DNA of 64,000 nucleotides, taken from Natronorubrum tibetense GA33 (GTDB taxonomy: Archaea; Halobacteriota; Halobacteria; Halobacteriales; Natrialbaceae). The translations under genes were made by a program, and so were the position numbers. This document shows, piece by piece, positions 13,899 to 18,441 of this stretch. Where the stretch lies: the NCBI RefSeq assembly GCF_000383975.1, contig NZ_KB913017.1:2531527-2595526 (forward strand), written 5' to 3'. The notes under the pieces are model-generated. The model was not told where the DNA came from. It worked only from the letters and a program-made list of their open reading frames with translations, and searched no databases. Each line of letters opens with the position of its first letter. Position 1 is the stretch's first letter.

Positions 13899-14069
13899 AT
13901 GGGATTCGGGAGCTACGACGAATCCGAGCAACAGGAAGTCGACGCTGATTTTGACGACGACACGGTACAATCCGGTGAGAACAGCCACGATGGATCGATC
14001 GAGTTCGAGAACGGCGCCTCCAGCGACGAGTTGCTCGATCGACTTCAGGAGATCAAAGACGAGGACTGA
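13899..14069 (+). CDS. DUF5786 family small acidic protein
   Basis: This is a 56-residue, strongly acidic protein. The start MGFGSYDESEQQE and the end DELLDRLQEIKDED match the small haloarchaeal DUF5786 family, whose function is unknown. It is too short for most gene tracks. Its stop overlaps the start of the DUF99 gene (TGATG), so the two are almost certainly co-transcribed and translationally coupled. Confidence 0.8.
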   Translation: MGFGSYDESEQQEVDADFDDDTVQSGENSHDGSIEFENGASSDELLDRLQEIKDED

Positions 14070-14641
14070 TGAAGCCCGGGGTGCGGGCGCTGGGCGTTGC
14101 CGAATCGGTTCGCGGTGACGCGAATCGCGACCGAAGCACGCTTGCCGGTGCAGTCGTCCGCGCCGACCGCGTTATGGACGGACTCGCATACCGTTCGTGC
14201 ACCGTCGGCGGCACCGACGCGACCGACGCCGTGGTGGCGCTCCTCGAGGACCTCGGTCGGCCCGACGTGCGGTACGTACTGCTCGGCGCCATCGCCCCCG
14301 CCTGGTACAATCTCCTCGATCTCGCTCGAATTCGGGAGGCTGCCGGCCGGCCAGTGATCGCCGTCACGTTCGAAGCGAGCGACGGTCTCGAGGGCGGTCT
14401 CCGCGACGCCTTCTCGGACGCTGCCCTCGAGCAGCGCCTCGAGACTTATCGGTCCCTGCCCGAGCGACGAGCGCTGTCGGTCAACGACGAGACCGTCTAC
14501 GTGCGACACGTCGGCTGCGATGCCGAGACGGCCGACGAGGTCGTCCGGGCGTTCACGCCCGAGGGCGGCCGGCCGGAGCCGATTCGGGTCGCGAGGGTCG
14601 CGGCTCGAGCGGGGGATACGTATCTCGACTCACTCGAGTAA
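14069..14641 (+). CDS. DUF99 (UPF0215) family protein
   Basis: The protein has 190 residues. The opening KPGVRALGVAES, the central DATDAVVALLEDLGRPDVRY followed by LLGAIAPAWYNLLDL, and PVIAVTFE are characteristic of DUF99, an archaeal family related to endonuclease V-like folds. Function is unknown; a nucleic-acid role is only suggested by fold. It overlaps the DUF5786 stop. Confidence 0.88.
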   Translation: MKPGVRALGVAESVRGDANRDRSTLAGAVVRADRVMDGLAYRSCTVGGTDATDAVVALLEDLGRPDVRYVLLGAIAPAWYNLLDLARIREAAGRPVIAVTFEASDGLEGGLRDAFSDAALEQRLETYRSLPERRALSVNDETVYVRHVGCDAETADEVVRAFTPEGGRPEPIRVARVAARAGDTYLDSLE

Positions 14642-14747
14642 CTCGCTTGGCGTCGCTCGACCGACCGTCGCGGACCGGTAGCAGCCTTATCGACCTATTG
14701 CCGAGCGAAAGCGGATTGTACCCTGTTGGGAGCTGTATATCCCGTGA

Positions 14748-14799
14748 GACCGATACCTCAGACCGATATCCCAGACCGATATCCCAGACCGATACCAAC
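14748..14799. repeat. Four 13 bp tandem repeats upstream of the uracil-DNA glycosylase gene
   Basis: Four consecutive 13-base units start with GACCGATA at 14748, 14761, 14774 and 14787. The middle two are identical (GACCGATATCCCA). They end about 47 bases before ATG 14846, a suitable place for a repeated operator, but they could be simple slippage repeats. Confidence 0.75.
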
Positions 14800-14845
14800 A
14801 ACTGCGACCCGAAAGACGTAGTAGTCGCCCGTTTGATCCTCCGAT

Positions 14846-15454
14846 ATGGGAACGATGGACGAGTCAGGGCTCTGTGTCAGCGAGTGTTCGCGCTGTCCGG
14901 CGCTCGTGGACTCTCGCAGCCGGATCGTCAACGGAACCGGGCCCGAGGACGCCGACATGCTGTTCGTCGGCGAAGGGCCGGGGGCACAGGAGGACAGCGA
15001 GGGCGAACCCTTCGTCGGTCGAAGCGGCTCCGTTCTCGACGACGGGCTCCGGAGCGTCGGCCTGATTCGTGAGGACGTTCGAATCACCAACTGCGTTCGT
15101 TGTCGGCCGCCGGAGAACCGCGATCCAACGACCGAGGAACTCGAGAACTGCCGCGGCTACCTCGAGCGGGAGATCGACCTCCTCGACCCGGAGATTATCG
15201 TTACGCTGGGAAAAGTGCCCAGCGAGCACCTGCTGGGGCGGTCGGTGGCGGTGACGAAAGAAGCGGGCTCGATCGAGGAGGTTCGGATCGACGGGACGCC
15301 GCGGCGCGTGCTGCTCTGTGTCCATCCGGCGGCGACGCTGTACGATCGAAGCCAGGAGGACACGTTCACCGAGGCGCTCGAGCGAGCCGCGTCCCTCGCC
15401 GGCGTCGACGGGAGCGACGGCGGAAGCGGGCAAACCCGACTCGACGGCTTTTGA
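14846..15454 (+). CDS. Family 4 uracil-DNA glycosylase
   Basis: The protein has 202 residues. It removes uracil from DNA, arising from cytosine deamination, at the start of base excision repair. Motif A is GEGPGAQED with GEPFVG, and the C-terminal motif is HPAA. Cysteines at 14 and 17 (CSRC) and the later pair in TNCVRCRPPENR fit the [4Fe-4S] cluster of family 4. The start could also be the Met at residue 4. The 13 bp tandem repeats lie just upstream. Confidence 0.92.
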   Translation: MGTMDESGLCVSECSRCPALVDSRSRIVNGTGPEDADMLFVGEGPGAQEDSEGEPFVGRSGSVLDDGLRSVGLIREDVRITNCVRCRPPENRDPTTEELENCRGYLEREIDLLDPEIIVTLGKVPSEHLLGRSVAVTKEAGSIEEVRIDGTPRRVLLCVHPAATLYDRSQEDTFTEALERAASLAGVDGSDGGSGQTRLDGF

Positions 15455-15617
15455 GACCGTGTTCGGATAGCAGCGGGCTATTCTCAGTGCTATCGAGACG
15501 AGTTGACGATCGACGCTGCCGACGAGATCGACGGTGCTATCGAGACGGAACCGCCGAGCTGTGGCGAACACTGCGCGGATGGAAACCCACTTGCCGCTCG
15601 GCTTCCCATCTCCAGCT

Positions 15618-16268
15618 ATGAACGCGACCCAGCAATCTCTCGCGTCCGTCGTCATCGTCGACTACGGACTGGGGAACCTGCGCAGCGTCACCCGCGGTCT
15701 CGAGCGTGCGGGTGCCGACGTCGAAATCACCGACGATGTCGAGGCCTTTGCCGCGGCCGACGGAGTCGTCCTCCCCGGCGTCGGTGCGTTCCGCGAGGGC
15801 GTCGAGAACGCCGATCCGCTTCGGGAGGATCTCCTCGAGGTCGCCGAGTCCGGAACCCCGCTGTTCGGTATCTGCCTCGGCATGCAGATGCTGCTGACGA
15901 CCAGTGAGGAGGGTGAGAACGACGGTGAGTCGGCCGTGCAGGGACTGGACCTGATTCCGGGCACCAACGTCCGATTCGCGGAGGGCCAGAAAGTGCCCCA
16001 CATGGGCTGGAACGAACTGAACGTCGAGCGTGACCACCCCTTGGTCGAGGGCGTGGATGGAGAGTACGCCTACTTCGTCCACTCCTACTACGCCATGCCC
16101 GACGACGACGATGCGACGGTAGCGACGACCGACTACGAACGCGAGTTCCCGTCGATCGTCGCGAACGAGGCGGGGAACGTCTTCGGTACCCAGTTTCACC
16201 CCGAAAAGAGCGGCGAGACGGGCCTACAGATTCTGCGGAATTTCGTCGAAATCTGCGCTGAGGAGTGA
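15618..16268 (+). CDS. hisH: Imidazole glycerol phosphate synthase subunit HisH
   Basis: The protein has 216 residues from ATG 15618. HisH is the glutaminase half of the enzyme that makes imidazole glycerol phosphate in histidine synthesis; ammonia passes to HisF. The start (VVIVDYGLGNLRSV), LPGVGAFREG, the nucleophile motif GICLGMQ and the His/Glu pair in FHPEKSG are all present. No other his genes are adjacent. Open sequence back to 15534 is not family-like. Confidence 0.95.
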   Translation: MNATQQSLASVVIVDYGLGNLRSVTRGLERAGADVEITDDVEAFAAADGVVLPGVGAFREGVENADPLREDLLEVAESGTPLFGICLGMQMLLTTSEEGENDGESAVQGLDLIPGTNVRFAEGQKVPHMGWNELNVERDHPLVEGVDGEYAYFVHSYYAMPDDDDATVATTDYEREFPSIVANEAGNVFGTQFHPEKSGETGLQILRNFVEICAEE

Positions 16269-16380: not shown

Positions 16381-16402
16381 ACACCCCACGGTGCCGCTGT
16401 AT
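16381..16402 (-). repeat. ORB-like box, inverted copy
   Basis: Read on the minus strand this is ATACAGCGGCACCGTGGGGT, in opposite orientation to the array beginning at 16694. It forms the left border of the predicted origin. Confidence 0.75.
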
Positions 16403-16469
16403 AGGTGCGAGAGATCGTTCCTGCGTCCCGTATTCGACGGGATCGGCGGAAACCGTCGGAACCGTTCTC

Positions 16470-16515
16470 GAACGTATACCCTTCTCAGAACGTCACTACT
16501 AAATACTAGTCCTGT
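16470..16515. other. Candidate DNA unwinding element
   Basis: This patch, including TACTAAATACTAGT, is clearly more AT-rich than its surroundings. It lies between the inverted box (16381) and the first direct box (16694), where haloarchaeal origins are expected to melt. No repeat or gene is present. Confidence 0.45.
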
Positions 16516-16693
16516 GTCACCGACCACTGAGAGTATTGCACGCGGAGCGACGGCGTCGGTTTTGAACGCGGATTCGCCGCTCGAGTCGAACTGAACCGCT
16601 CTCTACTTCCGTTTGTATCCTGCCGTGACGAACGCTCCTCCCGGTTTTCCACGTTCCAGTGGGAAGTTCAACAACCCACAGTCCTCCGCACTG

Positions 16694-17201
16694 ATACAGC
16701 GGCACTCCGGGGTGTGTGACCCACTATACAGCGGCATCGAGGGGTGTGAAACTATCGGCTCGGCTGCTATAGAACCCCACTCGTGCTTATACAGCGGAAT
16801 TGTGGTTTCGCCGCGACCGTTTCCGACTTTCCTCGCATATCTCTCGTGGTTCGTCCGGGAGTCAGGGACGTTGAAACCAGTAGTACACCGGAATCGTCCC
16901 ATCACGATACAGCGGCACTCCGGGGTTGTTCCTCCCACAATTTCGCCCTACCACGACTGCTATCGCGACGATACAGCGGCACTCCGGGGTTGTCGCCGAA
17001 CCGATACAGCGGAACCGTGGGGTCCGATGCGGTCATTGGCAGACGGCTACTGTACAGCGGAATTGTGGGGTTGGATAGCACTGATACAGCGGAAACGAGG
17101 GGTTCGACAGAACTAATACAGCGGCATCGAGGGGTGTGCTTTACGGTCTTGAGGGGGGAAAGAGCATTGATTGCACGCTATACAGCGGCAACCAGGTTCC
17201 G
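16694..17201 (+). repeat. Array of direct ORB-like boxes
   Basis: Direct copies start at 16694, 16726, 16789, 16907, 16971, 17004, 17052, 17084, 17116 and 17180. Most read ATACAGCGG then C or A, A, four variable bases and GGGGT. The copies at 16789 and 17180 have lost the G-string (GGTTT, AGGTT). The pairs 16907/16971 and 16726/17116 are identical over about 22 bases. The bases between copies are unrelated, unlike a simple tandem array. Confidence 0.85.
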
Positions 17202-17241
17202 AACAGTTAAGTCACGGCTATGTGATGTGCGTGATAGCTGA

Positions 17242-18441
17242 ATGTCGGATTCGATGGACTACTTCGGAAGCGAGAACGAGATCTTTCAGAACAAAGAACT
17301 GCTGCAGGTCTCACACCTCCCCGACGGCGACCGCATCATCGGTCGCGAGGACGAACTGACGAACCTCGCGAACGCGATCAAGCCGGCGACGCGGGGTAAC
17401 ACGCCGAACAATGTCCTCGTCTACGGCAAGACGGGAACCGGGAAGTCGCTGTGCTCGAAGTTTATCACGAACCAGGCCGTCGAACGCGCGAAACGAGACG
17501 ACGTGACGATCGGCGTCGCCTACGTCGATTGCTTGCAGGAGTCGACGGAGACGCAGGCCGTCCAGTCCGCCGGTCACCAACTCAACGAACAGGATGCGAC
17601 GGGAATTTCGATCCCCCACTCGGGTCTGAGCACGGCCGAGTACTACCGCCGACTGTGGCAGATCGTCGACAACCGGTACGACGTCGCGCTCATCATCTTG
17701 GACGAGGTCGACAAGATCGAGGACGACGATATCCTGATGCAACTCTCGAGAGCGGTCGAGTCCGGGAAACTCACCGAGAGCACGGTCGGTGTCATCGGCA
17801 TCTCGAACAAAGTTCGGTACAAGGACTCGCTGGACGAGCGCATCAAATCCAGCCTTTGCGAGCGCGAGTACGTCTTCTCGCCGTACGACGCGACCCAGAT
17901 CCGAGAGATCCTGCGCTCGCGCGCCGACGCGTTCCACGAGGGCGTCCTCGAGGACGGCGTCGTTCCCCGGGTCGCCGCGCTCGCGGCCCGCGAACACGGC
18001 GACGCGCGGAAGGCGATCGACATCCTCCGCTTTGCCGGCGAGATCGCCGAGGAAAACGACCTCGAGCGCGTTACTGAGGACTGCGTCGATCAGGCACACG
18101 AGCGCGAGGAGACCAGCCGACTCGCCGAACTCATCTCAAAAAGTCCGAGCCACGCGAAACTCGTCCTCGAGGCCATGGCATTGCGCACCCAGCAGACGGG
18201 AAACGACGACGCGCCGGTGACGACCAACGAGGTGTACGACCTCTACAAACGGCTCTGCGAGCGAGACCAGTCCGAACACCTGAAGCTCCGCCGCGTCAGG
18301 GATATCCTCTCGGAACTCGAGTTCCTCTCGATCATCGACCAGGAGCGCAAGTGGGCCGGGAAGGGGAAGGGCAACTACATGGAAAACCGGCTGATCGACG
18401 ATCCGGAGGTTATCATCGCGGCCTGTAACGAGTCCGATTAG
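17242..18441 (+). CDS. Orc1/Cdc6 family replication initiator
   Basis: The protein has 399 residues. Walker A is GKTGTGKS, Walker B is IILDEVDKI and sensor 1 lies in VIGISNKV. The arginine-rich sensor 2 region is near EHGDARKAIDILR. The C-terminal winged helix (TTNEVYDLYKRLC to KGNYMENRLI) binds ORB DNA. It should recognise the box array immediately upstream and load the MCM helicase. Haloarchaea carry many Orc1/Cdc6 paralogs; the N-terminus here (MDYFGSENEIFQNKELLQ) differs from my recollection of the main oriC1 initiator, so this may be a secondary chromosomal origin. Confidence 0.92.
   Translation: MSDSMDYFGSENEIFQNKELLQVSHLPDGDRIIGREDELTNLANAIKPATRGNTPNNVLVYGKTGTGKSLCSKFITNQAVERAKRDDVTIGVAYVDCLQESTETQAVQSAGHQLNEQDATGISIPHSGLSTAEYYRRLWQIVDNRYDVALIILDEVDKIEDDDILMQLSRAVESGKLTESTVGVIGISNKVRYKDSLDERIKSSLCEREYVFSPYDATQIREILRSRADAFHEGVLEDGVVPRVAALAAREHGDARKAIDILRFAGEIAEENDLERVTEDCVDQAHEREETSRLAELISKSPSHAKLVLEAMALRTQQTGNDDAPVTTNEVYDLYKRLCERDQSEHLKLRRVRDILSELEFLSIIDQERKWAGKGKGNYMENRLIDDPEVIIAACNESD

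Follow-up and report, generated by a model that had tools for sequence, protein, structure and literature searches.

A candidate orc1/cdc6-linked replication origin with a conserved box array and a G-less promoter box in Natronorubrum tibetense

Genes and boxes between hisH and orc1/cdc6

The window analysed is a stretch of 64,000 nucleotides of the Natronorubrum tibetense GA33 chromosome. Between hisH (15618–16268, + strand; a conserved upstream neighbour that provides context outside the origin) and an orc1/cdc6 initiator gene (17242–18441, + strand) it contains eleven boxes of about 20 bp with the form ATACAGCGG-N6-GGGGT. One is inverted (16383–16402) and ten are direct (16694–17199). Nine of the eleven match TACAGCGG-N6-GGGGT exactly; the two others, at 16789 and 17180, have GGTT where GGGG is expected, although their left half is retained. 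The count in the original prediction (at least nine near-perfect boxes and two degenerate ones) was therefore exactly right. The genome was also searched for further box clusters, as it had proposed: the exact pattern occurs nine times in 4.93 Mb, and all nine matches fall within one 0.8-kb stretch at this locus. The expectation from base composition is ~0.35 exact matches genome-wide and ~6e-5 in 860 bp. When up to two mismatches were allowed in the whole-genome pattern search, box counts equalled those of the reversed-pattern control.

The sole inverted ORB-like box, designated INV (16383–16402, − strand), reads ATACAGCGGCACCGTGGGGT, is followed by a GTGTGTCTC tail, and is found with 0–1 mismatch in all 30 relatives compared. 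Its partner is the first direct box, A (16694–16713), which carries the extended tail GGGGTGTGTG; the two are 84% complementary over 31 nt and the inverted pair is kept in the 30 relatives. Box B (16726–16745) is situated 32 bp past A, and box C (16789–16808), 63 bp past B, has the broken G-string GGTTT; both its position and the broken G-string are conserved in most relatives. Three middle boxes follow (16907–16926, 16971–16990 and 17004–17023), then a GTACAGCGG variant at −190 (17052–17071) and two boxes, at −158 (17084–17103) and −126 (17116–17135), whose positions are conserved. The last box, C2, at −62 (17180–17199), has an intact left half and a broken G-string (GGTTC), and abuts the orc promoter. 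All ten direct boxes are on the + strand.

The product of the 17242–18441 gene is an intact Orc1/Cdc6 protein of 399 amino acids (TIGR02928, 421 bits, with Cdc6_lid and Cdc6_C also above cut-off). It has an AAA+ domain with P-loop and Walker B, a lid, and a winged helix at its C terminus. Among solved structures the closest are 2v1u and 2qby, both of archaeal Orc1/Cdc6 proteins (Aeropyrum Orc1 and the Sulfolobus Orc1-1/Orc1-3 pair, respectively); the P-loop GKTGTGKS and the LDEVD, GLS and RRV stretches align with both. The presence of an initiator gene directly adjoining the array is thus confirmed. On the other side, two genes for DNA repair, one encoding endonuclease dU and the other a family 4 uracil-DNA glycosylase, are found just upstream of hisH (14069–16268, hisH included), and a family 4 uracil-DNA glycosylase is encoded near hisH in many relatives.

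Between INV and box A lies an element of 50–60 bp (TAAATAc...CTGTGT.A.cGtCCAtTgAg...TtGaACG) that is conserved in most relatives and is part of the presumed unwinding region. In the window it corresponds to 16489–16546 (+ strand; CACTACTAAATACTAGTCCTGTGTCACCGACCACTGAGAGTATTGCACG), with a profile match of E=2.8e-15, the window being among the profile's own rows. Its best-match identity exceeds the shuffled maximum in most relatives, and weak matches are present in several outgroup origins. The AT-rich patch of the original prediction is real though mild (63% AT over 30 bp at ~16.48–16.52 kb, in a genome of ~37% AT; 57–83% in relatives) and is covered by this element; a mildly AT-rich stretch, the presumed unwinding region, does lie between inverted ORBs. 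After the element, many relatives have a dyad that covaries (GAACGC/GCGTTC or GGACGA/TCGTCC; permutation p<0.0005, ignoring kinship) and is perhaps a site for another protein. In the window (16489–16570 for element and dyad together) the dyad is decayed, and for this reason it carries no weight in the case made here.

A layout shared among Natrialbaceae

The locus was compared with 30 named Natrialbaceae loci (79–99% identity). All share one plan, with the inverted box, spacings of 32 and 63 bp, and fixed positions near −158, −126 and −62. The inverted box is 565–1459 bp upstream of orc. Box A comes after the AT-rich stretch and has in common with the inverted box an extended GGGGTGTGT tail; box B follows ~32 bp after A and, in most loci, box C 63–64 bp further on, its G-string usually broken (GGTA or similar). 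The middle of the array is variable, with 0 to ~15 boxes in an arrangement that is not conserved, and the array closes with the boxes near −158 and −126, then C2 near −62. The number of direct boxes ranges from 5 to 20 per locus among these relatives; the largest array found, in Natrarchaeobius chitinivorans (L040), has 20, mostly 33–36 bp apart.

The sequences of the spacers between A, B and C diverge among relatives while the distances remain constant, a pattern suggesting that spacing is under selection. The 32- and 63-bp modules are near whole numbers of DNA turns, as are the spacings in outgroup loci (21–23, 42–45, 63 and 104 bp). Helical phasing was also considered as a general rule for the array; although strong in the 32/63-bp modules and in the outgroups, it is weak for the variable middle spacings and was for this reason not extended to the whole array.

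C2 is peculiar in that it keeps TACAGCGG and lacks GGGG in 34 of 34 Natrialbaceae loci. A broken G-string is found in 50 of the 231 other direct boxes of these loci, many of them box C. In outgroup loci, largely from megaplasmids (60–69% Orc1 identity), a count by eye gave 21 of 22 cases in which GGGG is missing from the box closest to the start codon. In N. tibetense itself, several orc paralogues (L012, L013, L016, L019 and L022; some start codons are uncertain) are preceded, at 50–110 bp, by copies of the left half of their own box that have no G-string. In relatives, C2 directly joins a conserved cgAACg.TTAAG motif, corresponding in the window to CGAACAGTTAAGTC (17200–17213, + strand), ~30–40 bp upstream of the start codon; it is presumably the BRE and TATA box of a leaderless or near-leaderless orc transcript. 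Compared with a close plasmid locus (pNVE414, L105), the locus of Natrinema versiforme JCM 10478 (L047) apparently misses ~130 bp, a gap that takes in the promoter-proximal box and the orc start. No earlier report of a G-less promoter box was found in the literature searched, most subscription journals being outside the reach of that search.

What is new here is the Natrialbaceae layout: the inverted box, the unwinding-region element, 32/63-bp modules at both ends and a promoter-proximal G-less box. G-string ORBs and dense ORB clusters were already known. The original prediction had set the box core apart from other haloarchaeal ORBs; the core is unusual, not unknown, because a close cousin, TAACAGCGGAAACAGTGGGGT, is printed for H. 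lacusprofundi and H. walsbyi (PMC3528665). The density of the direct cluster holds as counted, but it has a precedent in Haloarcula hispanica oriC2D, where 11 ORBs in 722 bp are proposed to titrate the initiator Cdc6E (PMC3936714).

Pairing of initiator and box

Among 293 genomes of the order, 63 sampled genomes belong to the family of the window. At an ortholog cut-off of ≥80% Orc1 identity, each of the 29 family genomes with this Orc1 has 2–9 exact boxes, and the 34 without it have 0–1 (co-occurrence with at least two boxes, 29/29 versus 0/34; Fisher p=1.3e-18, ignoring kinship). Outside the family, genomes with a 60–69% identical Orc1 mostly carry this box in clusters, which as a rule are close to orc.

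The genome also encodes ~13 further orc1/cdc6 paralogues, the closest 64% identical. At their loci the right half of the box is common (AACGnGGGGTG, or a longer G-run) and the left half differs (for example ACGACGG, TTTCACTCTG, CTCGTGAAA and TTACTACTCG). At the locus of the closest paralogue (L012, C1:3427983), near-cognate boxes are present (TTACA(T/C)CGGCACT(G/C)CGGGGTG), of which two are intact while several have no G-string, and cross-binding between the two initiators is therefore possible. At another paralogue (L014, replicon C3), about six direct ACGACGGAAACGnGGGGTG boxes lie past the gene, 1277–1492 bp from the start of the orc match, and resemble H. hispanica oriC2D.

Both the co-occurrence and the differing boxes at other orc paralogues support the specific initiator–box pair that had been suggested, and a dedicated initiator for ATACAGCGG-N6-GGGGT boxes is well supported at the level of sequence. 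In haloarchaea the ORB sequence is known to track the Orc family (PMC3528665) and origins depend on the co-located cdc6 (PMC3936714); here too, the box is specific to its Orc family.

Gene neighbourhood and phylogeny bear on where the pair came from. hisH is upstream in 23 of the 30 named Natrialbaceae loci, and all hisH-linked members, including the window, form one group in the tree (support 80/85, moderate). The group is placed among plasmid members from Natrinema versiforme, Natronosalvus and Natrononativus, and many more distant members of this Orc1 family are on megaplasmids. The tree and neighbourhood suggest, as their simplest reading, that a megaplasmid-type origin was captured once, next to hisH, within a single lineage of Natrialbaceae.

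Origin status and proposed working

We consider the locus a candidate orc1/cdc6-linked origin with its own initiator in a Natrialbaceae chromosome (probability roughly 0.8). As predicted, it has the anatomy of a haloarchaeal origin, with an AT-rich stretch between inverted G-string ORBs, beside orc1/cdc6, and this anatomy is conserved in the 30 relatives; the origin itself is still a predicted one. Together with one box sequence per Orc family, these features are shared with the orc/cdc6-adjacent origins of PMC3528665. The present locus differs from them in its ten direct boxes, all to one side, in modules fixed at 32/63 bp and in its conserved G-less boxes. The candidate is real and well delimited. 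It is ordinary in kind; what sets it apart is that the array is conserved and the promoter box G-less.

Similarity to H. hispanica oriC2-cdc6E/oriC2D lies in the many same-family ORBs within one intergenic region. However, oriC2D is downstream of cdc6E and the array of the window is upstream of orc, between the origin core and the promoter; downstream of orc the window has no boxes and the relatives have almost none. Megaplasmid origins from this Orc1 family (for example those of Haloarcula sinaiiensis pHsi540, Halorubrum and Haladaptatus) share the box (A/T)TACAGCGGCAAYG.GGGGT, a G-less box beside the orc promoter and, in many cases, an inverted pair ~300 bp apart. They differ in Orc1 identity (60–69%) and in having one to four inverted boxes and mostly few direct ones. 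In bacterial iteron plasmids, direct initiator-binding repeats beside the initiator gene are combined with a weaker variant at its promoter. The arrangement is the same and the initiator unrelated; the likeness is an analogy of working only.

As reviewed in PMC7776575, archaeal Orc1 proteins contact the left half of the box with the winged helix and the G-string with the AAA+ domain. Orc1 from the adjacent gene would bind the ATACAGCGG-N6-GGGGT boxes in this manner, and INV and box A, which flank the conserved AT-rich element, would mark the site of duplex opening and MCM loading. By analogy with oriC2D/Cdc6E, the remaining direct boxes may hold Orc1 and so limit initiation; we regard such titration as a conjecture with somewhat less than even odds. 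Once the array was filled, Orc1 could occupy the weak C2 site at the promoter and repress orc. This autoregulation, which we propose from position and sequence, is plausible but a little less probable than titration. That Orc1 proteins can regulate transcription is documented for Saccharolobus Orc1-2 (PMC9738581). A broader generalization is more tentative again: haloarchaeal Orc1/Cdc6 proteins of several Orc/ORB families might regulate their own synthesis through a conserved promoter ORB that has the winged-helix half and no G-string, and which together with the phased array would form an iteron-like circuit governing both the amount of initiator and the copy number.

Many relatives are without the pair (34 of the 63 family genomes have no ortholog), and the candidate origin is consequently not oriC1, which is expected in all haloarchaea. 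A link to the tested Natrinema J7 origins was also discarded: J7 primers did not match these loci and the sole genome with a J7 primer site (G159) has neither the Orc1 ortholog nor the boxes, which makes the J7 ARS results irrelevant to this candidate.

An origin may also be present and yet idle. Over half the family genomes sampled lack the pair, which indicates that it is dispensable and may be dormant, with initiator and boxes intact and other origins replicating the chromosome in normal growth. The many orc paralogues could carry replication, GC skew over the surrounding 400 kb was uninformative and did not turn at the candidate origin, and H. mediterranei oriC4 provides a precedent of an intact origin that is silent unless other origins are deleted (PMC4595724). 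Nevertheless, box sequences, spacings and protein are strongly conserved over 30 genomes, and some function is therefore under selection; we judge a dormant or decaying origin unlikely, though the most serious of the alternatives.

In another reading the array serves above all as a regulatory operator and a sink for Orc1, with initiation proper elsewhere. Most direct boxes are indeed placed on the orc side of the inverted pair, and the last of them abuts the promoter; oriC2D alone has no origin activity and reduces that of oriC2 (PMC3936714), and a transcription regulator of this kind exists in Saccharolobus Orc1-2. However, INV and box A with the conserved AT-rich element between them make up the core typical of origins, and outgroup loci have mainly that core and few direct boxes; we consider this reading improbable. 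Neutral expansion of the boxes by slippage, their number and spacing having no role, would agree with the range of 5 to 20 boxes and the unconserved middle, but hardly with end modules that hold 32 and 63 bp though the spacer sequence diverges, or with broken G-strings at fixed positions; we give it slightly less credence still. The preferred reading is accordingly that of a candidate origin with its own initiator.

The family appears to be a case of a megaplasmid-type origin that has settled in a chromosome, and it bears on how multi-origin archaea keep each initiator at the right level. The layout predicts that full boxes would store the initiator and that the G-less promoter box would read its excess, and the family offers a natural series of 5 to 20 boxes with which to probe what box number does.
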